A stretch of DNA of 64,000 nt from a virus. Every line of letters begins with the position of its first letter. The first letter of the stretch is position 1. Under the pieces are notes generated by a model, which was not told the DNA's origin, ran no database searches, and was given only the letters and a program-made list of their open reading frames with translations. Shown piece by piece: positions 1 through 60,008 of the stretch. The stretch is from the IMG/VR virus record IMGVR_UViG_3300037882_001264, positions 1 through 64,000 of that record. The stretch is one strand, 5' to 3'. The position numbers and the translations under genes are program-made.

Positions 1-2770
1 CCGTCGTGCCAGTCGCGGGAGCCACGACTGGCACGACGGCCACTGCCGCGACCCCGCCACCCAGGCTCAGCGATCCAGTGATCGAGGGCACTACCGTGGC
101 AGCGGTACCACCCAGTGTGATCGACCCTACTGCGGCTGCGGTGGCCTGCGCAGTGGTGGTGCCGCCCAGCGTGATGGAGCCCGCGATGCTGGGCACGATC
201 GTCGTAGCCGATCCGCCGAGCGTGATCGAGCCAGTGACGGAGGGCACCGTCGTCGAGGCAGACCCACTGAGTGTGATCGAGCCGGTGGCAGACGCACGGG
301 CCTGGCCCGAGGTAGAGCCACCGAGTGTGATCGAGCCCGAGGCAGTGACTGGAGTCTGCGCAGCAGCCGACCCACCGAGGGTGATCGAGCCAGTGGCTGC
401 GGCTGCTGCCTGTGCGGAGACCGAGCCGCCGAGCGTGATCGAGCCAGCAGGGGTCGCGGCTGCGCGTGCAGTGGCCGACCCGCCGAGTGTGATGCTGCCC
501 GCGATGGCGGGGATGATGGTGGAGGCGCTGCCCCCGAGGGTGATTGATCCACTGACGGCAGGAACAATCGTCGCAGCGGACCCGCTGAGGGTGATCGATC
601 CACTGACAGCGGGGATGATCGTCGAGGCAGACCCACCGAGCGTGATCGACCCAGTGGCAGACGCACCACTCGTCTGGGCGGACCCACCGAGTGTGATGCT
701 GCCAGACGCAGTAGCGGGTGCCTGTGCAGTGACCGATCCGCTCAGTGCGATGGAGCCGGAGACTGCTGGCACAACCGTTGCAGCGGAGCCGCCGAGGGTG
801 ATCGATCCGGAGGCAGTGGCAGCACCTCGCGCTGTTGCTGATCCCGCAAGGGTGATCGAGCCAGAGGCGACAGCAGCAGCCTGGGCCGAGACTGTTCCGG
901 CAAGGGAAAGCGAACCGGACGCCGACGGCACGACCCAGTTCGCAGTTCCACTCAAGGTGATTGACCCAGCCGCGACTCCTGGCGCGCGGGCTGTTGCTCC
1001 ACCACTCAGTGCGATAGAGCCGGTGATCGTGGGGACCACCCACACCGTGGTGCCGCCAAGTGTGATGCTGCCGCTAGCCGTTGCTGCGGCCCGAGCCGTG
1101 ACCGTCCCGCCCAGGCTCAGTGACCCAGACGCAGTAGCCGCAGCCCTCCCAGTGACTGTGCCGCCAAGGGTGATCGATCCACTGACGGCCTGCACGCGCC
1201 AGTCGGCCGAGCCACCGAGGGAGATCGAGCCGGACGCAGTGATCGCTGCTCGGGCAGCGACAGATCCGCCGAGACCGATCGAGCCGGTCGGCTGCTGGAT
1301 AAGACCTGCGCCGAAGTAGGTGTCGTCAATGTAGTGCGTCGAGCCAGGGCCACTTACCGGGTAGTCGAACTTGAAGTATGGGATCGCCAGCGCAGCAGTC
1401 GCGGGTGCCGTTCCTGTGACGGTGATCCTCGTCCACCCGCCTGTCGTGCTGCTGACGACCGTCCCGGTGCTGGAGGAGATGTACGATCCGCCTGAGGTGT
1501 ACCAGTCGATCCACGCCCCCACGTCGGCGACATTGGTGCCAGCGCGCACATAGGATGTCAGCGTGTAGACAGTGTTCGCCGTGACCGAGTACCCGTCGAG
1601 GGAACCATCGATGCAGGTGTACATGTACATGATGGACGAGGAACTCAGGCCAGCGACAGAGTAGGTCCCGGTACGCGCCTGGGCAGAAGAGCGACTCAGG
1701 GATCCGTTCCCGACAGTCCACGCGCCCAGACTTTCCTCTAGGGTCTGGGTGTCGATGCCAAGTATGTTGCGGCCGACAGCCACGTTCCCTCGCGCGACCA
1801 CCGACCCGCCAAGGGTAATCGACCCAGCGACACTACTGATGCGCCAGTTCGCTGATCCACCGAGGGCGATGCTGCCGGACGCAGTGGCGCGGCCCCGGGC
1901 TGTCGCAGAGCCACCGAGCGTGATCGAGCCGGAGGCTGTCGCGGGAGCCCTGGCTGTAGTCGAGCCCCCAAGCGTGATGGACCCACTGGCAGTCGCAGCG
2001 GTGCTGCCCGCTGTCGCGGTGCCCGAGCCGCCGAGGGTGATCGATCCGTTGATGGCGGGGGTCTCTACCCGCACCATGAGATCATCGAAGTAGAAGCGGT
2101 CATTAGTGTCTGTGAGGGGGACGATTAGGGTGGGGGTGATGAATCGTGCGTTGACGTCAAGGGTGAACAGGCGAGAGTGATATGTCCACTCAGTAGTGGT
2201 GGGCGTGATGTTGTTGAAGTAGGAGTTCGACGCAACCGTTGTCTGGTTCTGCTCCCACTCCTTGATGCCGAACCCAACGCTCTTGCCACTGACATTGGCC
2301 CTTACCCAGCCGGTGAATCTAATCTGGCTCCCACCCACAACTGGGCGCTTGGCCATGGTGCTCGGGTCAATGGCAATCTCGGCGGCTCCGCCACCTGAGT
2401 ACAGCGGAGTAGCCATGATGGAGCCGGAGCCGCTCCGCGCTTGAGCCGTCGTCGTGGTGACGATGACGAGGCCGTCATAGGTCGGTGAGACGTACCAATC
2501 GTAGGGTACGTCGTTCTCGCCAGTAGCCTCATCATCGGTGAGGTAGTTACTTCCGTCCCGGATGTAGATAGACTGGCTAGATGACCCGCCAAGGGTGATG
2601 GACCCAGAGGCAGCGGCTGGCGCCTGTGCCGTGGTCGAGCCACCCAGGCTAAGTGATCCAGTGGGCGCTGCTTGAGCAGCAGCGTTGACCGACCCACCAA
2701 GCGTGATGGAGCCGCTCGCCGTGGCATAGGTGGTGCCACCGTGCGGGAAGCCAAACCTGAACGCGAACAC
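1..2770 (-). CDS. GSITLGG-repeat tail fibre or adhesin, 3' end outside window
   Basis: The frame is open from a GTG start, preceded by AAGGGGGG at suitable spacing, to the left edge, so 923 codons are visible. The protein consists of about 32 copies of a 17- or 18-residue unit centred on G-S-[IL]-[TSA]-L-[GSA]-G, in blocks of 3, 5 and 24. Two non-repetitive modules separate the blocks (codons about 65-237 and 338-488). Both modules are rich in Tyr, Trp, Ser and Thr and end in a strand carrying DD (YFDD, YIDD), the look of beta-sandwich carbohydrate-binding modules. Units with Val-Pro in the spacer are 17 residues; Ala/Arg-rich units are 18. It is the last gene of the fibre cluster in this window. 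A receptor-binding fibre is inferred from composition and position; no exact family was recognised. Confidence 0.85.
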   Translation of the reverse strand, partial: MFAFRFGFPHGGTTYATASGSITLGGSVNAAAQAAPTGSLSLGGSTTAQAPAAASGSITLGGSSSQSIYIRDGSNYLTDDEATGENDVPYDWYVSPTYDGLVIVTTTTAQARSGSGSIMATPLYSGGGAAEIAIDPSTMAKRPVVGGSQIRFTGWVRANVSGKSVGFGIKEWEQNQTTVASNSYFNNITPTTTEWTYHSRLFTLDVNARFITPTLIVPLTDTNDRFYFDDLMVRVETPAINGSITLGGSGTATAGSTAATASGSITLGGSTTARAPATASGSITLGGSATARGRATASGSIALGGSANWRISSVAGSITLGGSVVARGNVAVGRNILGIDTQTLEESLGAWTVGNGSLSRSSAQARTGTYSVAGLSSSSIMYMYTCIDGSLDGYSVTANTVYTLTSYVRAGTNVADVGAWIDWYTSGGSYISSSTGTVVSSTTGGWTRITVTGTAPATAALAIPYFKFDYPVSGPGSTHYIDDTYFGAGLIQQPTGSIGLGGSVAARAAITASGSISLGGSADWRVQAVSGSITLGGTVTGRAAATASGSLSLGGTVTARAAATASGSITLGGTTVWVVPTITGSIALSGGATARAPGVAAGSITLSGTANWVVPSASGSLSLAGTVSAQAAAVASGSITLAGSATARGAATASGSITLGGSAATVVPAVSGSIALSGSVTAQAPATASGSITLGGSAQTSGASATGSITLGGSASTIIPAVSGSITLSGSAATIVPAVSGSITLGGSASTIIPAIAGSITLGGSATARAAATPAGSITLGGSVSAQAAAAATGSITLGGSAAAQTPVTASGSITLGGSTSGQARASATGSITLSGSASTTVPSVTGSITLGGSATTIVPSIAGSITLGGTTTAQATAAAVGSITLGGTAATVVPSITGSLSLGGGVAAVAVVPVVAPATGTT
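55..1295 (-). repeat. Main GSITLGG coding repeat array, about 24 units
   Basis: In-frame tandem repeat of 51 or 54 nt. Successive GTGA landmarks on the plus strand fall at 117, 171, 222, 273, 327, 381, 435, 489, 540, 591 and 642. The core G-S-I-T-L-G-G is nearly invariant and the spacer varies between Ala-rich and Val-Pro types. Confidence 0.9.
1795..2058 (-). repeat. Second GSITLGG block, 5 units
   Basis: Five units of the same coding repeat lie between the two lectin-like modules of the fibre gene. Spacers are mainly Ala/Thr/Arg-rich. Confidence 0.85.
2580..2735 (-). repeat. N-terminal GSITLGG block, 3 units
   Basis: Three units (cores GSITLGG, GSLSLGG, GSITLGG) follow directly after a short N-terminal segment containing FAFRFGFP. 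Confidence 0.85.
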
Positions 2771-4731: not shown

Positions 4732-4760
4732 TTGACAAAGCAGCCTTGTCATGCTATAAC
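4732..4760 (+). promoter_or_regulatory. Rightward sigma70-type promoter, antisense to tail genes
   Basis: TTGACA, a 17-bp spacer and TATAAC on the plus strand, the only strong promoter seen in that orientation. It overlaps the 3' end of the collagen-like gene to its right, so a transcript would be antisense to tail genes. The same bases form an inverted repeat, TGACAA/TTGTCA. No convincing plus-strand gene follows. Confidence 0.5.
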
Positions 4761-5183
4761 CCACCGATACTGGATGGTAACGCTCTTCGGTGGGACGCTC
4801 CCCACCGGGGTCACACAGGCGAACTGAATGACGTCCCCGGCCGAGCATGGGTACGAGACGGGGAAGGCCTGGTAGGTGTTCCCCGAGAGCAGCGTCATGA
4901 CCGACCCCAGAGCAACCCCGTTGCGGATCGTCTGGAGCCCGACGTTGGCGTTGCCAGCCTCACAAGCGACTGCGACAGACACCAGGGTGCTGTCCTTGTC
5001 GATCGGGAGGCGTGCGCTGTAGGTCTTCTGCGCGAGCGTGGTGATGCCGCCGAGCACGGTCACGACCTCGTCAGCAGGAGCGGCGGGTCCAGGAGGGCCA
5101 GTGGGACCAGGAGGGCCGAACGCAGCGCCAGGGCCCCCAGTGGGGACTCTGACGAACGCGGTGATGGCCCTGTGGTCAGTCAT
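4749..5183 (-). CDS. Collagen-stalked tail protein, short paralogue
   Basis: 144 aa. An N-terminal Gly-X-Y stretch (about residues 18-36, PGPTGPPGP type) is followed by a beta-rich C-terminal head. The head matches that of the larger collagen-like fibre upstream: both contain a [VL]-x-GG-[VI]-[AT]-TL start, AG-[NS]-ANV, YQ-[AT]-F-[PA]-VS and SAGDVIQ. The two are therefore paralogues with stalks of different length. Probably part of the tail-tip fibre apparatus. Confidence 0.8.
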   Translation of the reverse strand: MTDHRAITAFVRVPTGGPGAAFGPPGPTGPPGPAAPADEVVTVLGGITTLAQKTYSARLPIDKDSTLVSVAVACEAGNANVGLQTIRNGVALGSVMTLLSGNTYQAFPVSYPCSAGDVIQFACVTPVGSVPPKSVTIQYRWVIA

Positions 5184-5189
5184 GGCGGA

Positions 5190-5447
5190 CTACTTCGCCG
5201 CCCAGCCGGTGTTGCCCACGCCGACTTCCTTGACGTAGAGCGTAGTGCCCACGCCACCATCAGTGCGGAGGAAGAGGGTGCCCACCGGAGCGGTGACAGC
5301 AGCCTCGGGCGAGCCATCGCCGAACAAGATCTTCCCGTTGGTCAGGGAAGCCTCCGCGATGCCAGCCTCCATGTGGTTCAGTTTCACGGCTGTGATCGGG
5401 GTAGCGCCGATAGGGTCATCGGCCCAGGTCTGCACGATGTAGGTCAT
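5190..5447 (-). CDS. Small tail-fibre protein
   Basis: 85 aa beginning MTYIVQTWADD, with the ATG directly behind AGGAGGTG. The segment GATPITAVKLNHMEAGI resembles N-terminal attachment segments of many phage fibre proteins. The C-terminus (GTLFLRTDGG) is a typical fibre beta segment. An upstream in-frame ATG lies inside the GGGTAGAGG element and is rejected. Confidence 0.75.
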   Translation of the reverse strand: MTYIVQTWADDPIGATPITAVKLNHMEAGIAEASLTNGKILFGDGSPEAAVTAPVGTLFLRTDGGVGTTLYVKEVGVGNTGWAAK

Positions 5448-5454
5448 GGCACCT

Positions 5455-5471
5455 CCTCTACCCATTACGGG
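5455..5471 (-). repeat. Late-gene leader element, copy 1
   Basis: Minus strand reads CCCGTAATGGGTAGAGG, immediately 5' of the AGGAGG of the following fibre gene. It is one of seven related elements. A second inverted repeat, AGGACT/AGTCCT, lies about 20 nt further upstream. Confidence 0.55.
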
Positions 5472-5501: not shown

Positions 5502-5603
5502 CTAGTCCTCGTCGGCGTCCATGGCCAGACCCCAGCGGGAGTCTGCACCGCTGGGTGGGGGAGTCGCCTCGGTGGCGACGATCCAGACAGGCCTACCCTC
5601 CAT
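5502..5603 (-). CDS. Possible 33-aa peptide
   Basis: ATG overlaps the stop of the preceding gene by 11 nt. It encodes a short peptide (MEGRPVWIVATEA... ending DADED) with a Pro/Ser middle and an acidic tail. There is no clear ribosome site, so expression would depend on translational coupling. No function can be inferred. Confidence 0.4.
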   Translation of the reverse strand: MEGRPVWIVATEATPPPSGADSRWGLAMDADED

Positions 5604-6045
5604 CGGACGCCAGCCTCTCTGTGATCCTGTTGGCAGCCTCGATTGTACGCAGAGAGGACTCGTACGTGTTACCCAGGCTGGCACTATCGTCGTAGTTCTT
5701 GGGGATGATCAGGTCGTAACGGCTCGCGAGGAGCCTCCCGAACGCTCCGATGCTGGCGACGTAGACTCGATCAATCCCCAACTGCCCCTTGGTCCAGAAG
5801 AACAGTTCCTTGAAGATGCCTTGCTGCTGGTAGTCAGCCCTGGTCCAGACAGCGGTCTCGCCACCGGCACACTTGCCTGTGCACGAATCGCACCAACTGC
5901 CCCTATCAGTCCATCGGAGGGACGCCAGTGAGACGCACTCGCCGTCCTCGTTGAGGGCGGCACCGATCGCCTGGTCCGGCGCGTAGAGGCCGACATCCCG
6001 AGTCTCCTGCTCGGTCAGGAGGCGGAAGGAGATCCCGTCTAGCAT
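5593..6045 (-). CDS. GNAT-like N-acetyltransferase, partner of the ANL enzyme
   Basis: 150 aa. A beta hairpin (IGAALNEDGE, SLASLRW) is followed by a Cys cluster (CDSCTGKC). Next comes a GNAT motif-A-like strand and helix (TRADYQQQGIFKELF, with Q-Q-x-G matching the acyl-CoA pyrophosphate loop), then a VYVAS strand and an ASRYDL ending typical of the C-terminal GNAT hairpin. The ATG overlaps the TAG of the adenylate-forming enzyme gene, so the two are translationally coupled. Acyl transfer is inferred; the substrate is unknown. The CxxCxxxC insertion is unusual and might bind a metal. Confidence 0.6.
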   Translation of the reverse strand: MLDGISFRLLTEQETRDVGLYAPDQAIGAALNEDGECVSLASLRWTDRGSWCDSCTGKCAGGETAVWTRADYQQQGIFKELFFWTKGQLGIDRVYVASIGAFGRLLASRYDLIIPKNYDDSASLGNTYESSLRTIEAANRITERLASDGG

Positions 6046-7328
6046 CGCGCTGCGCCCCACTCATCCATACTGACGAACTCGACCACCTTGGGCGCGTAGG
6101 CGAAGGGGAGCAGTTCGTTGAGCCGGGCGCGGACGACCTCGGGGTCTTCCTGCATGCCGGTGTAGCGCATCTTGATGGCTGCGGAGGCTTTGCCTGTCGA
6201 GGCCACGGTGATCTTGAAGTCGAGCACGCCATCGATTGAGCCCGCTGCGCGGTTGACCAACTCCAGGGGGACGGAGAAGCCGCTCACGCGGACCTTCTTC
6301 ACCTTGCGCCCCACGGGGGTGATGGCGTTGCCATCATGCTCGACGATGTCGTCGATGACGCGATCGGCGCCGTATTCGAGTCCACCCTCGCCATCGTAGA
6401 GCCCCATGATGAACGAGGAGCGCACTGTGAAGTTATCCCCCTCGCTGGAGACGATTGCGACTCCGGGGAGGATCTCGAAGGGGCCTCCGGCGAGCGCGTC
6501 CCTGATACCAATGAGCCCGGCCTCGGTGGTGGCGTAAGCATCCACGATGTGCTCGACGCGCATCGACTCGCGGGCGTAGGCCAACTGCTCCTCGGTGAGC
6601 GGAGCCCCAGAGGATAGGAGCGCTCTAATGCCGGGGATCTCCCCCACGCCTTGCGCCATGAAGCGCTCAAGCATCGAGGGGCGCGCACTGAGCATGGTGA
6701 TCCCATACTTCTGCGCCATAGCGCTAATGACCTCAGTCGAGGGGCGCTCGTTGGTCAGGTAGGTCTTGAATCCCAGCCCCGTCAAGCACAGGAAGACGCT
6801 CGCTGACGCCATCAGCGGGGGCGAGTAGAAGGCCTTGCGGGGGAGATCGCCCGTGACGGCGCTCATGGTCTCCCCCATGCTCTCTGCCGAGAAGGTGAAG
6901 GGGCTGACGAGGCTGACCTTCGGGAGGCCGGTGCTGCCCGACGATGACGACACGATCCCGCCGAAGACGCTCGCGAACTCTCCCTCGGGCCGGTCGAGGA
7001 ACAGGAGCGGGTCGGAGTGGTCGAACTCAGAGCCGTAGCCGATGAAGTCCTCGCACTTCGTCACACGGATCAGATAATCATTGGCCATCCCGTCCATCAG
7101 TGATGCGAGGGGTAGGACATTGCGTCCAGTCGCTGCGACCCCCACCACGAGCGCGAGCCCGTAGATGTTGTTGTCTCCGCGCACGCCGACGATGCCAGCA
7201 TCGGGGAAGGTCTCGTCCACGTAGCGCGCGGTCTTACGGACCAGCGTGAGGAACTCAGCCTTGGTCAGCAGGACGTCGTCCTGCCCGAACACCACCTCGT
7301 CGCTGGCGAACGGTTCGAGGATCTTCAC
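6039..7328 (-). CDS. Adenylate-forming (ANL superfamily) enzyme, AMP-binding
   Basis: 429 aa. It shows the ANL motifs in order: the Ser/Thr/Gly phosphate loop SSSSGSTGLPKVS (about residues 127-139), SSGAP (239-243), DAYATTEAG (263-271, the YxTTE adenine/carboxylate motif) and a hinge-region VGRKVKKVRVSG followed by PLELV (339-358). ANL enzymes activate a carboxylate as acyl-AMP. At 429 aa it is shorter than stand-alone acyl-CoA ligases (about 500-550). The C-terminal lobe ends MDEWGAARC, without a recognisable GK-[IV]-x-R catalytic-lysine motif. It is embedded between tail genes with 4- to 7-nt overlaps on both sides, so it is a native part of the operon. Tail-protein modification is one possible role. 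Confidence 0.85.
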   Translation of the reverse strand: MKILEPFASDEVVFGQDDVLLTKAEFLTLVRKTARYVDETFPDAGIVGVRGDNNIYGLALVVGVAATGRNVLPLASLMDGMANDYLIRVTKCEDFIGYGSEFDHSDPLLFLDRPEGEFASVFGGIVSSSSGSTGLPKVSLVSPFTFSAESMGETMSAVTGDLPRKAFYSPPLMASASVFLCLTGLGFKTYLTNERPSTEVISAMAQKYGITMLSARPSMLERFMAQGVGEIPGIRALLSSGAPLTEEQLAYARESMRVEHIVDAYATTEAGLIGIRDALAGGPFEILPGVAIVSSEGDNFTVRSSFIMGLYDGEGGLEYGADRVIDDIVEHDGNAITPVGRKVKKVRVSGFSVPLELVNRAAGSIDGVLDFKITVASTGKASAAIKMRYTGMQEDPEVVRARLNELLPFAYAPKVVEFVSMDEWGAARC

Positions 7329-7837
7329 AGGGCATCCAATCGTGCGGCGAGAGCCGAGAGCCTGGACTCCAATGCAGCGATCCGGATCTCGTAGTTCAGG
7401 ACTGTCGAGGCGAGGTTCGCCTGGTTGGCACCAGCGACAGACAGCAGCATGCTGTACGCATACGATACCTGCGATAGCACGAGGAAGGCAAGCCGATCGA
7501 TCTCAGGATGGTTGTACGGGTAGTCCCGGTAGGCCAGCAATGCAGTCTGCACCAGCGGGTTCGCGTCCCTGAACTCTGTCGCCGTGACGGCCGAGTCGGC
7601 CGTGGCGCTGCGCAGTGCAGTGAGCGCTGCGTACATCTTCGCGCCGATGTCGTTCCGTGCGTTGATCTCCTCCTGGCTGGCGTCAGGGAAGAAGGAGATG
7701 TACTCGGCGAGTTCGTCATCAGTGCAGGCGCGCGGTGTTCCGAGCGGCTCACCCGATGCGTCCAGGTACTGGATCAGCCTGGTGTTGGTGTCGAAGCGGG
7801 CCCTGTTGCCATCGACTCGTAGCCATTCCCTGATCAT
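7325..7837 (-). CDS. Tail-region protein of unknown function
   Basis: 170 aa beginning MIREWLRVDGNRARF; the ATG shares one base with the preceding TGA. It is mostly helical and ends in a heptad-like stretch (LNYEIRIAALESRLSALAARLDAL) suggesting a coiled-coil trimer. It directly precedes the ANL gene with an ATGA overlap. A fibre-connecting role is possible; no family recognised. Confidence 0.75.
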   Translation of the reverse strand: MIREWLRVDGNRARFDTNTRLIQYLDASGEPLGTPRACTDDELAEYISFFPDASQEEINARNDIGAKMYAALTALRSATADSAVTATEFRDANPLVQTALLAYRDYPYNHPEIDRLAFLVLSQVSYAYSMLLSVAGANQANLASTVLNYEIRIAALESRLSALAARLDAL

Positions 7838-8808
7838 CAGGCACCCGACCCCTTCTTGATGATGATGTTCGGGCCACAGACGGTGCTCCACGTTCCCGCT
7901 GATGCCCCGGAAGCGAACGACGTAGCGTTCTTGCACTGGCCGAGCGGGGAGTAGCCCTGCGCTCCACTAGCAGTGCAGGGAAAGTACGCGGGCTGCGTGA
8001 GCACGTAGTTGTCCCCATTGACGACGAGATCGGGGGAGGATGCCAACTGCCCAAAGACGTCATCCCCGATGTTGTAGTTGTCCCCGCCGAAGGCCACGTT
8101 CTTTAGCCGACCTCGTGCCCCCAGGGGCAGGGCCTCGAAGACGAGGAGCGGCCAGTAGCCCAGGCCGCCTGCAAGAGCCTTGCCAGGGAACAGGTCACCT
8201 AGCGCGACGACATCCTGCACTGCGGGGCGCATCGTGCCCAACTCGCACAACTTGTTCGTCGTCCCGTCAGTACCGCGCTTGACGACGACCGCAGCAGACA
8301 TGCCAGCGACGGGAGGGTTGCTAACGATGGAGTACGCAGCGAGCGAAGTCGCAGCAGCCCTGGTTGATGCCACCACTGCGACGAGGTCTGCCGCGACGTT
8401 GTCGGTCGTGACGTAGGGGATGATCGGAGTCAGCATGACGAACGAGGTCGGGCTTCCGTAGGCTGCATCGGTGGCGCCCACGCCCCCGCCAGCCGGGCCC
8501 TGCACGCGGATGTAGAGGAAGTCCGGCGCGGCCGACACCTCCAGCCCGACGAGGGCACCGTTGACGGTCGAGAGCGCAGTCAGGAGCGTGATGTCGACAC
8601 CCTGCACCACCATGCCGATGTTGCCACGCACGTCCGGGACGGTGTCGGTGAAAGTGATCGTATAGGTGACGCCGCCCGAGATGGACTGGTAGGTCTCCCC
8701 GCTCACCAGAGACCAGCCCGAGTCGGCAGCCGTGAGGATGCTCTTGATGGTCGTGACGATCTCAGAGCCAGTGGCTCCGAGCGTGAGGACCGACTTGCTG
8801 TAAGCCAC
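7837..8808 (-). CDS. Minor tail or virion protein
   Basis: 323 aa, rich in Gly, Ala, Val and Thr, with the beta-strand composition of tail proteins. It contains a Gly-rich loop (QGPAGGGVGATDAAYGSP) in the first half and several Cys near the C-terminus (FPCTASG, GQCKNA, VCGPN). Coupled to both neighbours. The exact structural role is unknown. Confidence 0.75.
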   Translation of the reverse strand: MAYSKSVLTLGATGSEIVTTIKSILTAADSGWSLVSGETYQSISGGVTYTITFTDTVPDVRGNIGMVVQGVDITLLTALSTVNGALVGLEVSAAPDFLYIRVQGPAGGGVGATDAAYGSPTSFVMLTPIIPYVTTDNVAADLVAVVASTRAAATSLAAYSIVSNPPVAGMSAAVVVKRGTDGTTNKLCELGTMRPAVQDVVALGDLFPGKALAGGLGYWPLLVFEALPLGARGRLKNVAFGGDNYNIGDDVFGQLASSPDLVVNGDNYVLTQPAYFPCTASGAQGYSPLGQCKNATSFASGASAGTWSTVCGPNIIIKKGSGA

Positions 8809-9269
8809 TACTGCTCAGCCCTCTCGTAGGAGTAGTCGGTCCCGAGGTAGACAGTTGCCACCTTAGCGGTGAGGCCGGGTGTGCCCGTATTCAGGGGGTC
8901 GCGACATGTTGCGCCGTACGACGATCCATTGTCGTAGGTCGACGGGATGTAGTTGTACCACGCCCCCGACCTGAGCGTGCTCAGCGGGGCAGACTCCAAC
9001 TTGAGGAAGTCGAGATACCCAGCGAAGCCAGACCGCGAGAACGGGGCGATCGAGGTGATGATCCCACTGCTTACCGCAGCCGCAGTCAGCACGGGCACGT
9101 CCCCCGACACTGGGCGCGCGGCCTGAACGTAGACCTCGATGGACGGCGAGTCCGTCACTGCCCCGGCCCAGTTGCTCACCGATACTCCGAGCCGGGGGAT
9201 GATCCACACCTTCTCGTACTGGACACCGCCAGCGGTGTACTCGTAGGTAGGTGTCGGTGCTCCGCTCAT
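8808..9269 (-). CDS. Minor tail or virion protein
   Basis: 153 aa beginning [15 protein letters not shown]; beta-rich with aromatic residues. A C-terminal WYNYIPSTYDNGSSYGATCRD stretch is consistent with a surface-exposed virion protein. Its ATG and TAG overlap the neighbours. No family recognised. Confidence 0.7.
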   Translation of the reverse strand: MSGAPTPTYEYTAGGVQYEKVWIIPRLGVSVSNWAGAVTDSPSIEVYVQAARPVSGDVPVLTAAAVSSGIITSIAPFSRSGFAGYLDFLKLESAPLSTLRSGAWYNYIPSTYDNGSSYGATCRDPLNTGTPGLTAKVATVYLGTDYSYERAEQ

Positions 9270-10300
9270 CAGGATGTCCCGTTGGTTTCGATGGTGACCG
9301 CGTGGAAGGTCCCTGGTGTGGCGATGTCCGAGTTTAGATAAATGTGCCGGGTCGCTCCCCCGATGGCCACCTTGATCGCAGGCTGCCCTCCCGAGGTAGT
9401 CTGCGTGGAGAGGATGTGCTGGGCCTGCTGCTCGAAAGCGGCCGAGCCTGCGGCGGGGCTCATGATCTCAAGCGAACCGGTGTTCGGTACGTAGAGGGCA
9501 CCCCCGTTCTTGTAGGGTCCGACCTGCGTGGAGAACGTCGCTTGAGTCGTGTTGGCTACTGCTGCGCCGTCGGGGATCGCGCCGTACTGTCCAGCGACCG
9601 CTGGACTGCCGACGAACTGGTCCTCGTAGATGGTCTTGAACCCCTGGCCACTGTCGCCACGGATCGGCACTGCGGCGACCATGAGCGTCGAACACGAGAC
9701 GCCGTTCTTGTTGGCGTAGAAGCCAGCGCTCACGTTCGCGGGGTTGTTGAGCAGCAGCGCGGGGATTCCGCTACCGCCCTGGTGTGGATCCACCGAAGAG
9801 TAGAGCGGGTGCACCAGTTCGAGCAGGGGCACGGGCGTCGAGCCACGGAGCGCAGACACGCACCATCCGTACTTGTTGACGTTGAGGAAGAAGGTGAAGG
9901 TCGCACCTCGGCTCATCCATGACGGGAGCAGCGCCTCGGCGACACCGATGGTCGCGCCGGACGGGCCGTTCACCGACGTGAGCGATGGGTTCCTGGCCCG
10001 CAGCGTAAGGAGCGTCTCGGCCCCGAAGTACTTGATCTCGAAGAAGATTCCCGAGGAGAAGATCCCCGAGGCTACGCTGTCGGTTGAGCAGAACAGGCCC
10101 GCGCCCTCTTGCACAGCCATCACACAACGCACAGCCTGGGCGGGTCTCGGGGTGTTGGCGCCAAGGAGGCCGCCGCTCCCGTCAGCCCCGCTGTAGACAG
10201 CCTTGGACGCAGAGATGGCGAAGTTGGTACGCAGGGGCGCGACCGTGATTGGGTCCGACGCCCAGTTGGCTGTCATCACTGGGGAGGGGGCGAGGGTCAT
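9269..10300 (-). CDS. Tail fibre or receptor-binding-type protein
   Basis: 343 aa, beta-rich. It starts [20 protein letters not shown] and contains strands such as [20 protein letters not shown] and [19 protein letters not shown], the pattern of lectin or jelly-roll folds. It follows the collagen-like fibre with an ATGA overlap and probably belongs to the same fibre complex. Role inferred from composition and order. Confidence 0.75.
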
Positions 10301-11556
10301 ACTCGGTATCCTACCGACACGGTGACGTTGGTCGGCGCTGTCACCCCTACGGGCCCGAAGCCGACCTGGATCACATCACCGGCCGAGCCCGCGAGCGACA
10401 CCGCGAACGTCTGGTACGAAGCCGACGACAGTCCGGTGACGGGCGACCCGAACGCGGCTTGCGATCCAGCGAGCGGAGTGCGGTACAACTGCGCATTGAC
10501 GTTGGCCGAGCCAGCGACCCACGCGATGGTGATGCTCTCGATCGTGTAGGCGCTGGGCATCGGGTAGAGCGCAGCGTAGATCTTGTTCTCCAGCGTGGCC
10601 ACTCCACCGAAGACGGCTTGCAGCAGGGGCGCAGGTCCAGTCGGGCCTGGCACAGTCGAGGCGGCACCCGTCATGCCGGTCGAGCCAGTGGGTCCGGCTA
10701 CCGTCGAGGCCGGACCAGTCGGGCCGGGCACCGTCGAGTCGAGCCCCTGGACACCCTGAGGGCCAGTGGGTCCGGCGACCGAGGAGACGGGTCCAGTCGG
10801 GCCCGTCACCGTCGAGGGTGCACCCTGAGGTCCCGTGGGGCCTGGGACGTACGAGTCGAGCCCATCGCTACCTCGCGGGCCGGTGTCCCCCTTCGGGCCC
10901 GTGACTGTCGATGGCGTGCCAGGGCTGCCGGGCGCACCAGTGTCGCCGACCGACCCTTGAGGACCTGTCGGCCCAGTGACTGTCGAGGGGGCGCCCTGCA
11001 TGCCAGTCGGGCCAGTCGGCCCAACGATGGCGGCTCCTGTGGGTCCAGTGACCGTTGAGGGGGCTCCAGTGTCTCCCGTGGCTCCGCGAGCACCAGTGGG
11101 GCCCGGCACCACCGAGGGGTCTCCAGGGGCGCCCTGGTCTCCAGTCGGGCCCACCGCTCCTCGGGCTCCTGTGGGGCCTGGGACGGACGAGGGGGCGCCT
11201 ACAGCCCCAGTGGCCCCAGTGGGCCCAGTGACGGTCGAGGGCGTCCCTGGGGTGCCCTGGTCGCCTGTGGGGCCGGTGACCATCGAGGGCGCTCCGGTGG
11301 GGCCGACAGCACCCGTGGGCCCCGGGATGGTCGAAGGGTCACCCTGATCACCAGTGGCACCGGTCGGGCCCATGGCTGTCGAGGCCGCACCGGTAGGGCC
11401 CGGCACGGTCGAGTCTTCGCCCTTGGGTCCGGTAGCACCAGTAGCGCCTGTGACCCCGCTCGTGTTGTCGATGTACGTCTTGGCATCAGCCCACGCCGTC
11501 GAGAAGGGGTCATACCACGGATCCTCCCCCAGTGGGGGCAGCGGGGGCCAACTCAT
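10297..11556 (-). CDS. Collagen-like tail fibre, long paralogue
   Basis: 419 aa. A short N-terminal anchor with many Pro/Trp ([18 protein letters not shown]) leads into about 275 residues of Gly-X-Y collagen-like repeats of the GPTG, GPKG and GAPSTV type, interrupted by short S-T-V motifs. A beta-rich C-terminal head of about 105 residues follows. The head is homologous to that of the short collagen-like gene near 5 kb. Collagen-like stalks trimerise, which fits a tail fibre shaft. Confidence 0.9.
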
Positions 11557-11559
11557 GGG

Positions 11560-11880
11560 CTATGCTCCTGCGCCATCTGGGAGTACGACCCAGGTGTCAC
11601 TGACGTCATCGTAGTAGTGGAGCGGGTGCGCGCTGACCCACCCGCGCCCGTTCCAGTAGCGCAGTGGGCGAGGCTCCCAGGAGTCACCATCCCAGACCTC
11701 GATGTTCTGGGGGATCTCCAGTTCGACGTCACCCACCAGGGTGAACTCAGATCCAGGCCATGGCCCTGTCTCGAAGAGCAGCCCTGTGTTGGAGACGGTG
11801 TACTCGACACCAGGCCATGCGCTCGTGTCGGGAGCGAGCCCTGTGTTGGAGACGGTGTACTCGAATCCTGAAGTCGGCAT
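11560..11880 (-). CDS. Repeat-containing tail protein with a tryptophan-rich C-terminus
   Basis: 106 aa. It starts with tandem 19-residue units (FEYTVSNTGL..., VEYTVSNTGL..., then a degenerate SEFTLV). The C-terminal half contains VWDGDSWEP, YWNGRGWV and DTWVVLP, the spacing seen in small binding modules on phage fibres. The ATG shares one base with the preceding TAA. Confidence 0.75.
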   Translation of the reverse strand: MPTSGFEYTVSNTGLAPDTSAWPGVEYTVSNTGLLFETGPWPGSEFTLVGDVELEIPQNIEVWDGDSWEPRPLRYWNGRGWVSAHPLHYYDDVSDTWVVLPDGAGA

Positions 11881-12740
11881 TACGTCCACGACCCTGGGAT
11901 GGCCTTGGTGATTGCCACATACGGCCCGAGGGGCTGGGAGATGGCCCAGGTCCGCCGCATGGTGATGACCGAGGAGATGGCCCCAGGAGCAAGGGCGCCG
12001 ATGTTCTGGGTTGAGGCGTACCCGCCACCCGTGCTGAAGTCAATGCCCGCAGCCATGGCACCCGACGGAAGCGAGTCCTCCGCACTGATCACCACGCTGT
12101 TGGCCGTCAGGGTGGCGGACTGGTTCTTGACCCGGAAGGTCCTGGTGGCCGAGGACGACCTTGGTGAGTTGCCCCAGTCCAGCGCGGCGGGCGCGATGCG
12201 CTGATCCAGCACCGGGTCCCAGAAGTCGAGCCGATCATTGGCTGATGAGACCCTGCCAAACAGGTGAATGTTGCCCATGTCTGCTTCGTTGTAGAAGTCA
12301 GTGTCAAGATAGAACTGTAGCCCCTTGATCCCGGTTCCCGCCGAAGTAATCGGGACGATGCCCGTCCGGTGGGTGGTGCTTGTGCCGCCCGTCGTGATCC
12401 CCGTCGCCCCCGTGTTGACCCAGGTGCCGTCGAGCCCATTGGTCGTGTCCACTGAGGTCCACACCTGGAATACATCGACGACGTCACCAACCGAGATGGT
12501 CTGGTAGAGGTAGTGGGTGATATCCCTGGGCTCGGGGAAGAGGAAGTAGGTGCGATGCACCTCGTTTCGATCCTGGCTGAATAGTTCGACTGTGTTCGCC
12601 TCATTGTTTAGGGCGGCCACAGTACCCCCGGAGTGAGGGTAAAGCACGCCCCCCAGGGCAAGGCTCGTGTAGTGCACCTGTGTGCCATCGAGGTGATAGG
12701 CGAGCCGATTGTTGGGGTAGTCGGGGTAGTTGCCAGCCAT
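11880..12740 (-). CDS. Minor tail protein
   Basis: 286 aa beginning MAGNYPDYPNNRLAYHLDG. It is beta-rich throughout, with a central region of aromatic strands and a C-terminal Ser/Thr/Ala-rich half. It opens the fibre cluster together with the small gene before it. No catalytic residues or membrane segments. Function inferred from position. Confidence 0.75.
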   Translation of the reverse strand: MAGNYPDYPNNRLAYHLDGTQVHYTSLALGGVLYPHSGGTVAALNNEANTVELFSQDRNEVHRTYFLFPEPRDITHYLYQTISVGDVVDVFQVWTSVDTTNGLDGTWVNTGATGITTGGTSTTHRTGIVPITSAGTGIKGLQFYLDTDFYNEADMGNIHLFGRVSSANDRLDFWDPVLDQRIAPAALDWGNSPRSSSATRTFRVKNQSATLTANSVVISAEDSLPSGAMAAGIDFSTGGGYASTQNIGALAPGAISSVITMRRTWAISQPLGPYVAITKAIPGSWT

Positions 12741-43466: not shown

Positions 43467-44363
43467 CTAGTAGGCCGAGGCGGTGAGCCGGAGGACCGGG
43501 TCCAGGGGGACCACAGCCAGCATCGCTAGCCGGTCCTCTAGGCCGAAGGAGGCCACGAGTCGGCCGTCCCACATGGTCAGTCCTGCCGCGAACTCGATGG
43601 TGGGGCGCTCGAAGTAGAACGGCGGGGTCGTGGACAAGGCGCCACGGTGCCTCCGAACGAAGCGGTTGACGTACTGCCTCTCGCCTCGATCGTAGTGGAC
43701 CTCATGGACCAGGGCGAGCCAGCCGTCGAGCATCCGGATCGCCTGAGACCCACCCCGGAGATCGGTGGTGGGGTCCAGGAGGCGGTACGGGATCCGGCCA
43801 TCCTCGTACAGTATCCCGTCCGCTGGGTCGTAGATGGCGAGCGGGGATGCCTTGTAGATGAACCGGCCGTCCTGCATCGGCATCCAGTTCTTCTCATGCA
43901 CCAACTCTGGGGCTCGCGACGGCATGATCTCTCGCTCGACCGATCGCCAGTCCTCAAGGCGATCAACAGCGATGCGGCAGACACCGTCGGCACGGTGCTC
44001 GCGCAACGTCCCGGAGACCTGCCAGTACCCATCGTCATGCCAGATAAGGCGAGCGTCCTCCATGTTCCTGACGTCGCCGTAGAGCATGGGGCCACGCACC
44101 GCGCTCTGGTCGATCTCCTGCATCCCCGTGACCCGGAGGTCATCATCGAGGTGCGCGACCCAGTTGCGTGTGTCGATGTAGCCGGGGTACTCGTACTGCC
44201 CGCGCGTGATGACGTAGTTCGAGGAGCGGACGATGCACTTGTACCCCTCGGTCGGGGAGTAGGCGATCGAGGGGTTGAACGAGGACCAACCAGGCCGCGC
44301 CGACATCGCGATGGGCCTGGTGGTGCACCAGCCGAAGAGTTCGGCGGCGGACTGCACTTCCAT
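43467..44363 (-). CDS. Beta-propeller glycosidase/phosphorylase-like protein
   Basis: 298 aa. Strand repeats containing YPGYIDTRNWV, VRNMEDARLIWHDDGYWQVS, HEKNWMPMQDG and RGGSQAIRMLDGWLALVHEV fit the five-bladed beta-propeller of GH43/GH130-type enzymes (the E-D-A-R-L and E-K-N-W motifs are characteristic). Its ATG shares one base with the glycosyltransferase stop, so the pair acts together. It could trim or transfer sugars on a virion protein; catalytic residues are not assigned with certainty. Confidence 0.65.
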   Translation of the reverse strand: MEVQSAAELFGWCTTRPIAMSARPGWSSFNPSIAYSPTEGYKCIVRSSNYVITRGQYEYPGYIDTRNWVAHLDDDLRVTGMQEIDQSAVRGPMLYGDVRNMEDARLIWHDDGYWQVSGTLREHRADGVCRIAVDRLEDWRSVEREIMPSRAPELVHEKNWMPMQDGRFIYKASPLAIYDPADGILYEDGRIPYRLLDPTTDLRGGSQAIRMLDGWLALVHEVHYDRGERQYVNRFVRRHRGALSTTPPFYFERPTIEFAAGLTMWDGRLVASFGLEDRLAMLAVVPLDPVLRLTASAY

Positions 44364-45412
44364 CAGAAGGCCAGGTTGGCAGTCGCCTGGTCCCGCTTGT
44401 ACTGGTCGAGCGACTCATCATTCGCGAGTTGGCGGAAGATCGAGCGGGCGGTCTCCTTGTCGTCGCCCCACCAGAGGGCCACGCCGACCTCCATGAGCAT
44501 GTCGAACGACTCGATGTCACGGTGCACGAAGAGGATGTCGGTGGAGGGCTCACGGGGCGCCTGGAGCGCGAGCACTTGGGCGGCGAGCCGGGCCTTACTC
44601 TGGTTGAGGATCTTGATCGCCTCGGTGAAGGCCTCCGCACGCGACGGCCGGTACGACCAGGCGACCAGGTAGTCCCCAAGGGAGCCCGTCAGTTTGGCGA
44701 TCTGGTAGTAGGCCCAGTAGATCTCCTGGTCCCAGTGGCCGATCTCCAGGTAGCGCCGGTAGGTGCGCAGAGAGTCCTCGTTGCGCCCCAGATCCTTGTA
44801 GGTCTGGGCGAGGTAGAACGCAGTGCGTGGGTCGTTCGGGTTCCTCTCGAACTCCCCCTCCAGCAGCGCCATGTCGCGAGTGAACTTCTCCGGCCGCGTG
44901 CCACCGTCGCCGTGGTGGTAGATGGTGAAGGTCGGGTGGTTCTCCGTCTTGTACGGCACTTCAGCCGACAGAAACTCGTGAGTGACTCCGTGGTAGCGCC
45001 ACGGCAGGGCTGCACTGACCAGGTAGGGCATCCACCACTCGAAGCCCCCGCCGATCTTGACCATGTAGCAGTCGGAGGTCAGTTCGCCGAGGTCGCCCGA
45101 CAACTCCATGTCGGCATCGACCAGCAGGAAGTAGGCGTTGTCCGCGTCCCAATCGAAGTCCTCAACGACCTCCTGGAGTTCGTCGAGCAGCGCGTTGCGG
45201 TTGTGGGCGAAGTTCACCCACTCTTGATTCAGCAGCGCGTACTCGACCGTGCTGTCCGCCATGAGGTCGTGGACCTTGCGCTTGGTGTTGTCAGTCGAGC
45301 CGGTGTCGATCACCACTAGGTAGTCGGCGTAGGGGAGGGCAGAGCGTAGGCAGCGCTCGATGACCTCGGATTCGTTCTTGACGATCATGCCGACAATGAC
45401 CTTGGGCATCAT
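44363..45412 (-). CDS. GT2-family glycosyltransferase with TPR-like C-terminus
   Basis: 349 aa. The N-terminal GT-A domain has VGMIVKNESEVIERCL, VIDTGSTDNTK and the DxD-type metal motif LLVDADMEL (about residue 100). The C-terminal region (from about residue 195) carries tetratricopeptide-like repeats (FYLAQTYKDLGRNEDSLRTY). Such GT2-TPR proteins transfer nucleotide-sugars to protein or carbohydrate acceptors. Placement among virion genes suggests glycosylation of a virion protein, as shown for some mycobacteriophages. Confidence 0.8.
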   Translation of the reverse strand: MMPKVIVGMIVKNESEVIERCLRSALPYADYLVVIDTGSTDNTKRKVHDLMADSTVEYALLNQEWVNFAHNRNALLDELQEVVEDFDWDADNAYFLLVDADMELSGDLGELTSDCYMVKIGGGFEWWMPYLVSAALPWRYHGVTHEFLSAEVPYKTENHPTFTIYHHGDGGTRPEKFTRDMALLEGEFERNPNDPRTAFYLAQTYKDLGRNEDSLRTYRRYLEIGHWDQEIYWAYYQIAKLTGSLGDYLVAWSYRPSRAEAFTEAIKILNQSKARLAAQVLALQAPREPSTDILFVHRDIESFDMLMEVGVALWWGDDKETARSIFRQLANDESLDQYKRDQATANLAF

Positions 45413-56067: not shown

Positions 56068-56306
56068 AGCAGTACCTCTATCTCTTCATCGGCTAGGTGT
56101 GATACTGAGTAGTCTTGGTCATTCGCCACGTATCGTAGCATCACGAGGGCGTCGTGTCCAGTCTTCCCTTGCTGGGTGCGCACATGGGTGATGTAGCCAC
56201 GCCCCTCCTGGACGCGGATCACGCGACCGCGCTCAAGGTTTGAGGCGGGCAGGGTCCATGCAACGGGCTCGGGCTCTTCCTCGGGAGTCAGCGGAGCCTC
56301 AGACAT
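56064..56306 (-). CDS. Small protein of unknown function
   Basis: 80 aa, MSEAPLTPEEEPEPVAWTLP, with a beta domain (ERGRVIRVQEGRGYITHVRT). A longer form starting upstream would add a membrane helix (KILLAAALGSLAYAYV) but overlaps the preceding gene by 98 nt; the short form is preferred. No family recognised. Confidence 0.6.
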   Translation of the reverse strand: MSEAPLTPEEEPEPVAWTLPASNLERGRVIRVQEGRGYITHVRTQQGKTGHDALVMLRYVANDQDYSVSHLADEEIEVLL

Positions 56307-59300
56307 TGCGACCCTCACGTATGCGTAGGCGAGCGAGCCGAGGGCTGCTGCGAGGAGGATCTTCCTTGCCCTCACTGAGTACCTCATCAGACGCAAAGAT
56401 GTGGGACGGGTGGATGTCGCTGGGCCAGTAGTCCTCGCCCAGGTTGCCCCGGTAGGGGGTCTCAGCGTGCTCCATGTGCTGTGCGGCTGGGTTGTTGACG
56501 CTACCCCTCACGACGCGCACCGGTACATGGCTGACGCCCTCCTCGTGAGCAGCCTGGACTCGGTGGTTGCCTTCGCCGAGGTAGGCATGGTGGGTCTTCG
56601 GATCGAAGATTACCATGGCCGGATCCTTGAACCCCTCGCCGTTGCGGAGGGACTCGCGGTAGTGCTCTACGCCGGAGCGCTCAGTCTCGTTGCCGTGCAT
56701 CTTGCGCAGCGCGTCGGTGCTGACATAGCCGATGACAGATCGGTCCTCGCCCTGACCGCCCATGCCGCTGTCACGGTAGTGGTTCATGTTCGGGTGCAGC
56801 GTCGTGGGGTCGACCTTCGAGGCGATCTTCTGACCGTGCTGGTCGCGCTTGATGAACATCCCCTCCTCGTCGAAGTCTTCATCCTTGGGCTCGGCCAGGG
56901 TCTGCTTGACGTCGTCGAACTCGTTGTGACCGAAGCCCCGGTCGCCAGTCATGTACCCCTTCCAGCGATTGTAGTGCTGGGTGTGCTGCTCGGGTGTCAT
57001 GTCGCGGACGTCAGGACCGTCGTAGTGGTAGCCCTCGCCGAAGTGATGGCGCGGGGGCTGATCCCAGCCGTCCCGCTCGATCGGCTTTCCAGAGTCAAAC
57101 TCGCTGCCGTGGTGGCTCTCGATGCGGCCATGCTCACCGAATGCCTCGCGCTCGTGCGCGTCGAGGGGGATGACTCGATGCACCTTCACCTTGTCGAAGT
57201 GCTCGGCGGGTATGAACTTCTCTCCGCCCCATCGCTCGTCGGTAGCGACTCCCTTGGGGGAGTGGATCTCTGCCACGTATGGGCGAACGTAGCCCTGCGT
57301 TCCAGTCCAGTCGCTAGGGCGCTCAGCCGTGTAGAGGCCCTTGTGCTCGCGAGGACGGATGGACAATGCGTTGTCCTCCGGCTGGTGGTCCGGGTTCAGC
57401 GCGAAGTGGGGGTTATCAGTAAGGTGGTAGGTCACCTCGTGATCCTGAGACGACGTCTTCTGGTCGGGGAAGCGAGCATCGACCAACTGCTGCCACAGCC
57501 CCGCCTGGTCGAGGTACTTCTCGACGGCGTTGCGGTAGTCGAACACACCCTGGCCATGCGGGCCGAATGCCCCCGAGCGCGAGGAGTGGATGTGCTCCCA
57601 GATGCGCTTGGCACGGTTCGAGCGCGCTGGCTCCGGGAGGGCGAGCGCACCCTTGACCTGCTGCGCGACGCCCTCGAAGTAGTACCACTCCGTCGGCGAG
57701 AACTTGTGGCCCTTCGGCTCGCTGACGGGGCGCACGGCCCACTCGTCGTCGGAGAGGTTGTACGCGGCGTAGGGCTTGATCACGCGGATGTCGTAGGAGT
57801 TCGGGTTGACGTAGAAGGTGCTCGACCAGGGGCCGACACGCACCTTGCCACCCTCGGGGTCGCCAGCCCATTCCCACTCGGGGACTTCGCTGGAGGGCAC
57901 GTTGAGGTAGACACCTTCGAGGTTGCAGTGCTCACGCAGTTCAGCGTTGAGGTGAGCCGACACCATCTTGGGGCTCATGCCAGCGAACTGCGGATTGGCC
58001 TCGACCAGCCCCTTGTACTCGACGCCGATCAGTGTGTCGAGGTCATCGTTGAGCCGGTACTTCGGGTCGACTTCGCGATCGGCTGCATGAGCCTGGATGG
58101 CGTTCTTGTCAGCCCACCACTCGGAGATGCTGGAGCCAGCGATGTAGACCTTGCTCCAGGTGCGCCAGTTGGAGTAGCGACCGTCCCACCATGCAGCCAG
58201 TCGCCCCATGGCGTAGTCGCGGACCTCGGGGCGGATCCTGTCGCCGTCGAACAGGCGCGGGTCAAGGCTACCGTTCGTCGGGGCGAAGAGGCGGTCGGTC
58301 GGTTGCCAGGTGTCGAGGACGTGAGACTCGCGAAGAAGCGCCTGCTTTATCGTCTTCCATGGGGTGTGCTTGACCTCCTTGCGGAGCGCGGGCATGTCGG
58401 GTAGATCAGCGATGTCCCACCAGGCCACGACCTCAATGTCATCACCCTTGGGGTCATCGGGATTGCGGACGTGACGGTCTTCGTGGTCGGGATTGAGGTC
58501 GATGTCATCCTCGGTGGGGATCGTCAGGACAAACCCCTGGTAGATCCCGTTCGGGCTGACCCAGTTCGCCGTGACCTCAGCGTCGCTGGGGATCTTCAGC
58601 CCGGTCTCCTCGGAGAACTCACGGCGTGCAGCGGCGAGGGGGTCCTCACCCTCATCGATATGACCTCCGGGGAACTCCCAGGTGCCACGAGCCGGGTCCG
58701 ACTCGTCCTCGTTGGAGCGCTGGATTAGCAGGATGCGACCGGAGTCCTTGGCCTTGAGGCACAGCCCCGCAACCTCGATGCTCTTCGCCTCAGCAAAGTG
58801 CTGGAGGATCGACACCGGCTGGAAGTCCTTCTTGCGGAGCCGAGGCCTTGCCTTGGTAGCGTCCTCGTATGCGACTTCGTGCTGGTCCCAGTCGTGCGGC
58901 TCGTACACGTCGCTGCCGTCAGAAACACTCTTGACGAATCCCCTGCCATCGCGGGTGAGGTCGTCAGAGTGCATTGGCAGGGTGTCGACGTGACCGGCGT
59001 CGTGCAGTTGCTGGGCGTGCTCCAGCATCTTGCGCGCGACACCCTTGCCGTCGTACCCCCGGCCCACCTGCACCCAGGTGATCTCACCGGGCTTGTACTG
59101 GCGGCTGCCGTCCTTGCCGACCCACGAGAGGCTCCCGACAGGAGCACCGCGATCTGGCAGCCGGGCGTGGATAACGTGCTTCTCCCCACCGAGGGTGGGC
59201 TGCTTCTCGTAGTGGAGTTTCAGACCATCGAGCGAGTAGTCATCGCCGAATCCACCAAAGTGCTGGAGAACCCCGAGAGTGTAGTCATGCTTGGTCCCCT

Positions 59301-59790
59301 TGGGGTCGGCCACCTCATCGTGGAACGCCCCGGGGTCCTTTCCGGACTCTTCGCCGTCCTCCCAGTTGCTGTCATCCCACCCTCTGGTGTTCATCCAGGT
59401 CCGACCGTCCTCAGACAACTCAGGAGAGTGGATGGGAAACGAATCGGCCTGGCCACTGGTGTAACGCTCCTTGGCGTGTTCCATCATGGCGCTGGCAATG
59501 CCCTTGCGACGATGGTCCTCATGAACCCACACATTGGAGATCTCACCCGGGTAGTGCCCATCGGACTCCGAGTACCTCTCCGATTCGCGAGGAGCCCAGG
59601 TCATGCTGCCCACGAGCCCACCCGAGGATGGGCTGTGAGCCTCAACAGCATGGTGGGGAGTTATGTAGTGGGGCGTTCCGTCACCCTTCCTGCGCCCCGG
59701 GAAGAAGCGGAACTTCAAGTCTGAGGGCAGATCTCCGCTGGAGCCGCCAAAGTGCTGAAGCAGGGAGGCACCATCGGGCTGCTGGCTCAC
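56299..59790 (-). CDS. Multi-enzyme fusion: GNAT-GNAT-Nudix-NTase-like-ART-like-ParB-like
   Basis: 1163 aa from GTG behind GGAGG. Domains in order: GNAT (motif HRRKGIA, about 93-99); second GNAT (YDGKGVA, 246-252); Nudix hydrolase with a perfect GX5EX7REUXEEXGU box (376-398); nucleotidyltransferase-like (GSS at 552, DDLD at 582); ART-like (YHLTDNPHF to about 880); C-terminal ParB-like (GEGNHRVQAA, 1072-1081). The first three modules each begin with an L-Q-H-F motif (11-14, 175-178, 329-332), as in a modular polyprotein. It follows the terminase, so it may be packaged or act early after ejection. GNAT and Nudix calls are firm; the nucleotidyltransferase and ART calls are tentative. Confidence 0.75.
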   Translation of the reverse strand: MSQQPDGASLLQHFGGSSGDLPSDLKFRFFPGRRKGDGTPHYITPHHAVEAHSPSSGGLVGSMTWAPRESERYSESDGHYPGEISNVWVHEDHRRKGIASAMMEHAKERYTSGQADSFPIHSPELSEDGRTWMNTRGWDDSNWEDGEESGKDPGAFHDEVADPKGTKHDYTLGVLQHFGGFGDDYSLDGLKLHYEKQPTLGGEKHVIHARLPDRGAPVGSLSWVGKDGSRQYKPGEITWVQVGRGYDGKGVARKMLEHAQQLHDAGHVDTLPMHSDDLTRDGRGFVKSVSDGSDVYEPHDWDQHEVAYEDATKARPRLRKKDFQPVSILQHFAEAKSIEVAGLCLKAKDSGRILLIQRSNEDESDPARGTWEFPGGHIDEGEDPLAAARREFSEETGLKIPSDAEVTANWVSPNGIYQGFVLTIPTEDDIDLNPDHEDRHVRNPDDPKGDDIEVVAWWDIADLPDMPALRKEVKHTPWKTIKQALLRESHVLDTWQPTDRLFAPTNGSLDPRLFDGDRIRPEVRDYAMGRLAAWWDGRYSNWRTWSKVYIAGSSISEWWADKNAIQAHAADREVDPKYRLNDDLDTLIGVEYKGLVEANPQFAGMSPKMVSAHLNAELREHCNLEGVYLNVPSSEVPEWEWAGDPEGGKVRVGPWSSTFYVNPNSYDIRVIKPYAAYNLSDDEWAVRPVSEPKGHKFSPTEWYYFEGVAQQVKGALALPEPARSNRAKRIWEHIHSSRSGAFGPHGQGVFDYRNAVEKYLDQAGLWQQLVDARFPDQKTSSQDHEVTYHLTDNPHFALNPDHQPEDNALSIRPREHKGLYTAERPSDWTGTQGYVRPYVAEIHSPKGVATDERWGGEKFIPAEHFDKVKVHRVIPLDAHEREAFGEHGRIESHHGSEFDSGKPIERDGWDQPPRHHFGEGYHYDGPDVRDMTPEQHTQHYNRWKGYMTGDRGFGHNEFDDVKQTLAEPKDEDFDEEGMFIKRDQHGQKIASKVDPTTLHPNMNHYRDSGMGGQGEDRSVIGYVSTDALRKMHGNETERSGVEHYRESLRNGEGFKDPAMVIFDPKTHHAYLGEGNHRVQAAHEEGVSHVPVRVVRGSVNNPAAQHMEHAETPYRGNLGEDYWPSDIHPSHIFASDEVLSEGKEDPPRSSPRLARLRIREGRNV

Positions 59791-60008
59791 GGTCACCTCC
59801 ACACCCTTTCGGGGCCCCCACGCTGAGAGCGACAGCAATGACTGAGGGGCCCCTCCCGGAACTCAGTCCAGGTCGGGGCCCCTCTGCGTGCCGATCCTGC
59901 CACAGCAACCCGCCAGAGACGCTGGGCGGACCTTGCACGCTTGGAGGGGGTTACCCTCCGTCGGCCATAGTATGGCACAACCGACCCAAGTGGTGCAACC
60001 CGGGTCGG
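59791..60008 (-). promoter_or_regulatory. Structured leader of the multi-enzyme gene, with leader element copy 7
   Basis: 218-nt gap between terminase and multi-enzyme gene. It contains CCGACCC/GGGTCGG and GGAGGG/CCCTCC hairpins and three GGGGCCCC palindromes, two of which pair as a perfect 10-bp stem (GAGGGGCCCC / GGGGCCCCTC). The last palindrome is followed by CCGAAAGGG, the seventh leader element (59797-59819). No U-run terminator and no clear -35/-10 pair is visible. Confidence 0.5.

Follow-up and report, generated by a model that had tools for sequence, protein, structure and literature searches.

A derived ANL homologue ending without the adenylation lysine among the fibre genes of a probable actinophage

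Introduction

Does a gene of the adenylate-forming (ANL) superfamily that lies among phage fibre genes, and is coupled to a second small gene, form an acyl-modifying pathway with it? The question was raised by a 64,000-nucleotide stretch of viral DNA (positions 1 to 64,000 of record IMGVR_UViG_3300037882_001264; here called the window, to which all coordinates without another label refer). A sequence-only reading of the window had proposed that an ANL enzyme and a GNAT-like acyltransferase together acylate a tail protein or a host envelope molecule. Viral contigs seldom carry ANL genes (one scan of 2.9 million contigs with a P-loop pattern yielded 40 confirmed loci), and it is odd to meet one that lies among fibre genes and has its adenylation lysine replaced. 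An active protein would bear on how far ANL catalysis depends on the A10 motif, and would point to acyl chemistry encoded by a phage close to its receptor-binding genes; an inert one would be the product of an ordinary capture whose catalytic end is gone.

Results

Genomic setting

The record is 102,809 bp long and carries a Baseplate_J gene near the end opposite the fibre cassette. Its portal protein shares 42% identity with the portals of Rhodococcus phage E3 and Mycobacterium phage Myrna; the record is related to Ceeclamvirinae-like actinophages, with actinobacteria as probable hosts. The genes at the locus are listed below, with the evidence for each in parentheses.

4749-5465 (-): two short virion-type genes downstream of the 150-aa ORF (PHROG)
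5593-6045 (-): 150-aa ORF, its start overlapping the ANL stop (ORF list, codon adaptation)
6039-7328 (-): ANL protein, 429 aa, GTG start (PF00501, Foldseek, codon adaptation)
7325-7837 (-): small gene directly before the ANL gene, no family assignment, overlapping both neighbours (TGATG, GTGA)
7837-10300 (-): three overlapping cassette genes, 7837-8808, 8808-9269 and 9269-10300, no family match (Pfam, PHROG)
10297-11556 (-): collagen-like fibre protein (PF01391, E=4.9e-13; PHROG tail fibre, E=1.4e-26)

The GTG start of the ANL gene overlaps the TGA of the preceding gene (GTGA). At its other end the ATG of the 150-aa ORF (6045-6043) overlaps the ANL stop TAG (6041-6039) in ATGCTAG, as the sequence-only reading had described. 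A gap of about 130 bases separates the 150-aa ORF from the downstream fibre/tail-type gene (5190-5465), which matches head-fibre and minor-tail PHROGs (phrog_5711, E=3.2e-9; phrog_2012, E=1.9e-5). Because the genes overlap on one strand, with a collagen-like fibre gene upstream and a head-fibre/minor-tail PHROG gene downstream, the placement in a tail-fibre operon was correct. Synteny of the fibre region with two relatives is almost nil, as expected for fibre cassettes. No relative was found for 7325-7837 in IMG/VR, nor for 7837-8808 and 9269-10300 in IMG/VR and phages.

Farther along the cassette, a 286-aa protein (11880-12740, -) is related at 31% to a gene that the Streptomyces phages phiCAM and Speedwell carry between their portal and scaffold genes. 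The record runs into collagen-like sequence at each end (window 1-1350; L003:17716-18774), and the two ends do not overlap, as if a circular or permuted genome had broken inside the repeat. A family 2 glycosyltransferase gene (44363-45412, -; PF00535, E=2.5e-8; PHROG beta-1,4-glycosyltransferase) lies about 2 kb upstream of the portal gene.

Coding evidence and family of the ANL gene

The ANL ORF is a real gene. Its codon adaptation, measured against seven large ORFs of the same phage (portal and terminase among them), is 0.64, with 0.57-0.65 for its neighbours and 0.35 for decoy ORFs in the region's other frames. The sole Pfam match of the protein is PF00501 (AMP-binding; aa 129-275, E=2e-12, 47 bits, cut-off 29.9); the C-terminal domain PF13193 found no Pfam match in it, and PHROGs gave none for the protein. 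Several NCBIfam acyl-CoA ligase and adenylation models match weakly, all far under their cut-offs. With phmmer against the PDB, the best matches were to the amide bond synthetase McbA (6sq8, 6h1b; E about 0.005), and aa 332-415 matched the CmnG C-domain weakly (E 0.0065).

An AlphaFold2 model of the protein (pLDDT 69, pTM 0.67) took an alignment of 18 viral ANLs as its input; since that alignment contains other ANL proteins, the model is pushed towards the ANL fold. Foldseek matched it to 619 PDB chains at E<=0.001, led by Staphylococcus aureus MenE (3ipl, E=2.6e-25) and followed by McbA, DltA and NRPS adenylation domains. The Pfam match and the order of the motifs support ANL identity independently of the model. 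The 429-aa protein is a genuine but derived ANL homologue, and the identity first claimed for it is upheld by the PF00501 match and the fold matches. The three motifs on which that claim had been built, SSSSGSTGLPKVS (aa 127-139), DAYATTEAG (aa 263-271) and VGRKVKKVRVSG (aa 339-350), are all present in 7328-6039 (-).

Motifs kept and lost

The protein was aligned with 17 viral ANLs and with E. coli MenE and EntE; a FadD row, being out of frame, was left out of account. The motif positions read from the alignments are as follows.

6915-6953 (-): A3 P-loop, VSSSSGSTGLPKV, aa 126-138, Lys137 kept
6519-6545 (-): A5 motif, VDAYATTEA, Glu269 kept
6336-6362 (-): A7 region, RVIDDIVEH
6279-6311 (-): A8 motif, GRKVKKVRVSG
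6042-6092 (-): A10 region, PKVVEFVSMDEWGAARC, C-terminal end of the protein

The A3 signature (S/T)(S/T/G)G(S/T)TGxPK is satisfied by SSSGSTGLPK, and Glu269 of A5 is invariant (18/18 aligned viral ANLs). In A7, Asp327 aligns with the ribose-binding Asp; the (S/T)GD signature is lost and VIDD stands in its place. In A8 (R-x-(D/K)-x6-G, as defined in PMC8388817), Arg341 and Gly350 are kept at the right spacing, and the hinge Asp/Lys is replaced by Val343; this change by itself may mean little, since McbA has Gln there (PMC6282839).

In the column of the adenylation lysine (A10, Px4GK) the protein has Arg428, and Cys429, its last residue, is followed by the stop. The lysine is present in 17/17 of the other aligned viral ANLs (one column earlier in L108) and in E. 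coli MenE and EntE. No GK-type motif was found in any frame across the ANL stop, and a sequencing shift or frameshift therefore does not explain the missing motif. Judged from the alignment, this ending without the adenylation lysine is new relative to the sequence-only reading, which had overlooked it. The A10 lysine is the key catalytic residue of the adenylation step in the ANL family (PMC8388817). Since it is missing, and the A7 TGD and the A8 hinge are altered, acyl-AMP synthesis by the protein is doubtful.

The coupled 150-aa ORF

The codon adaptation of the 150-aa ORF (0.57 vs 0.35 for decoys) fits the phage. Its identification as a GNAT, on which the proposed pathway depended, found no support: there was no match in Pfam, NCBIfam or the PDB, and PHROG gave a chance-level E=0.23 at best. 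A profile of 27 GNAT stretches from the same phage and its relatives aligned at the motif-A position with a non-significant E=2, fourth among decoys. A single-sequence fold was uninformative (pLDDT 37.6). The sole GNAT-like feature is a motif-A-like stretch, YQQQGIFKEL (aa 71-80): set against (Q/R)xxGx(G/A), QQQGIF has the Q and the G, and F in the last position. A GNAT is possible. Two candidate relatives were rejected as chance matches, namely L004, a helicase sharing TEQETRDV and a Cys-rich stretch, and L089, 37 aa on the opposite strand in a portal region.

GNAT domains occur elsewhere in the window, where a 1179-aa ORF (56299-59838, -) has a GNAT domain at its N terminus (PF13508, E=6.8e-11) and, besides a further weak GNAT stretch, a NUDIX domain (PF00293, E=4.7e-19). 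In related phages, large ORFs carry GNAT-like domains in tandem, as many as four of them (G001, 62.7-64.4 kb; G008, 15.7-17.1 kb).

Distribution

A portal-based scan gave 80 related viral loci, and the 47 longest records were tested, 20 of them over 100 kb. None of the 47 had a PF00501 match; the same search recovered the ANL gene in the window's own record. The 150-aa ORF was likewise absent from the related records, one chance match aside, and no sister phage carrying the pair was found. Absence of the pair from relatives was half of one outcome that the sequence-only reading had said would count against it; this half, on distribution, is what was found, in 47/47 related records. No close relative of the ANL protein was found in IMG/VR, phages or plasmids, nor in GTDB pattern scans, which reach close relatives only and of which the second used patterns outside the P-loop. 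The phage collection gave no ANL relative even at E<=10, chance matches apart. Among viral ANLs, the closest shares 26% identity with the protein over 170 aa. GenBank 'phage' ANL matches of E. coli MenE look mostly like bacterial sequence deposited under a phage name; one example is Acinetobacter phage MD-2021a, which carries fadD, fadK and entE.

Other viral contigs show ANL genes in different company. In L111 (2487-4528) an ANL gene overlaps a hexapeptide acyltransferase gene by 7 bases; in L096 such a pair is convergent (5635-7158, 7066-7710), the ANL gene being set with sugar-type acyltransferase and aminotransferase-like genes. A 316-kb viral record (L128:5629-8022) has an ANL gene, a carrier-protein-like gene and a holo-ACP synthase gene in a row. 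A 98-kb record (L126:273-8031) has three short ANL-like ORFs amid TctA/TctC-like genes, with an aspartyl/asparaginyl hydroxylase-like and a tail-fibre-like gene; the TctA/TctC and fibre assignments were made by eye. As the ANL gene adjoins a hexapeptide acyltransferase gene in two lineages (L111, L096), the pairing of ANL and acyltransferase is real in other phages; there it involves full-length ANLs in sugar-type or metabolic clusters.

Discussion

A two-enzyme acyl pathway, as first proposed, does not follow from these results: the partner's GNAT identity is unsupported, the ANL protein lacks the A10 lysine, a search of the record found no acyl carrier protein, and the pair is absent from 47/47 relatives. 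We tentatively prefer to regard the ANL gene and the 150-aa ORF as lineage-specific accessory genes with reduced or altered acyl-activating activity, while giving this somewhat less than an even chance. The variable fibre cassette of an actinophage would carry the pair as such. The ANL protein retains the ATP site of its N-domain (A3 and the A5 Glu), together with the A7 Asp and the A8 Arg, while its C-domain is cut off at A10. It may bind ATP together with a carboxylic acid and, its activity being low or altered, activate or hold an acyl group, which could then be linked to an amine or handed on to the 150-aa protein; a small molecule or a surface glycan would in this way be decorated during infection. 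The catalysis, the substrate, the partner's role and the target are all what we infer. The accessory-gene reading is favoured by the PF00501 match, the ANL fold and the kept K137, E269, D327 and R341, as well as by the codon usage of both ORFs and by the lack of ANL genes in 47 relatives, in a search whose positive control worked. It is also favoured by the PDB sequence matches to McbA, an ANL that makes amides with neither CoA nor carrier, by the lack of a carrier protein in the record, and by the hexapeptide acyltransferase neighbours of ANL genes in L111 and L096. Against it stand the missing A10 lysine, because of which activity may be nil, a partner of no supported family, a structural model that its ANL alignment draws towards that fold, and a search for sister phages that found none.

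Following closely behind, and still a serious contender at somewhat over one chance in three, is a pseudo-enzyme or decaying gene: an acquired ANL whose C-terminal catalytic loop is gone and which has ceased to make acyl-AMP, being either on the way out or retained as an ATP- or acyl-binding protein. Arg428 in place of the lysine, with the protein ending one residue later, the altered TGD and hinge positions, and a nearest viral relative just 26% identical, with no close relatives in the IMG/VR, phage, plasmid and GTDB scans, all fit it. Simple decay is harder to reconcile with 429 open codons in phage-adapted usage (0.64 vs 0.35 for decoys), a P-loop and Glu that are still in place, and the neat way in which the gene overlaps its neighbour on either side. 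An auxiliary metabolic enzyme, which would supply the lipid or envelope metabolism of the host with an acyl-CoA or acyl-amide and have no connection with the virion, is improbable: ANLs of other environmental phages do occur in metabolic clusters (L128, L096, L126), whereas this one stands alone among fibre genes, with no metabolic neighbour, no carrier protein in the record and no A10 lysine.

Acylation of a tail protein by the ANL protein and a GNAT partner, altering adsorption or stability, is speculation and we think it less likely again. The genes do sit inside the fibre cassette and the two ORFs are translationally coupled, but variable fibre cassettes commonly house accessory genes, and location alone is therefore a weak argument; the GNAT identity is unsupported, the A10 lysine is missing, and none of the relatives tested has the pair. 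Among the papers searched, none on acylated phage tail proteins was found. Least likely of all, in our estimate, is that the ANL, its C-terminus remodelled, can do without the A10 lysine and transfers an acyl group directly to an amine of a fibre protein or, via the small protein, to a surface molecule; if true, this would be a previously undescribed system for acylating the virion or the envelope.

Comparison with known systems

The Ceeclamvirinae-like actinophages (Myrna, Rhodococcus phage E3) resemble the present phage in their portal (42%) and as large-genome actinophages; they differ in that the phage collection has no ANL relative, and neither do the 47 environmental relatives. Other environmental phage ANLs (L096/L113, L111, L128; BFVD A0A6J5L563) are likewise phage-borne and some lie beside an acyltransferase gene, whereas those of L096/L113, L111 and L128 are full-length, have the A10 Lys, belong to metabolic or sugar-type clusters and are <=26% identical to the protein described here.

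MenE (o-succinylbenzoate-CoA ligase) is the best fold match (3ipl), shares the motif order and, at 451 aa in E. coli, is short like the 429-aa phage protein; identity is 15% in the fold match (3ipl) and 24% in the alignment (E. coli MenE). Unlike the phage protein, it has the A10 lysine and ordinary A7 and A8 motifs. McbA, an ATP-dependent amide bond synthetase of Marinactinospora, gave the best phmmer matches in the PDB and also lacks the usual hinge Asp/Lys, its hinge residue being Q394; it is an ANL that joins an acid and an amine without CoA or a carrier (PMC6282839). Its similarity to the phage ANL is weak (E about 0.005), and it differs in having about 495 aa and a complete C-domain, in which K483, mutated in 6h1b, would by its position be the A10 lysine.
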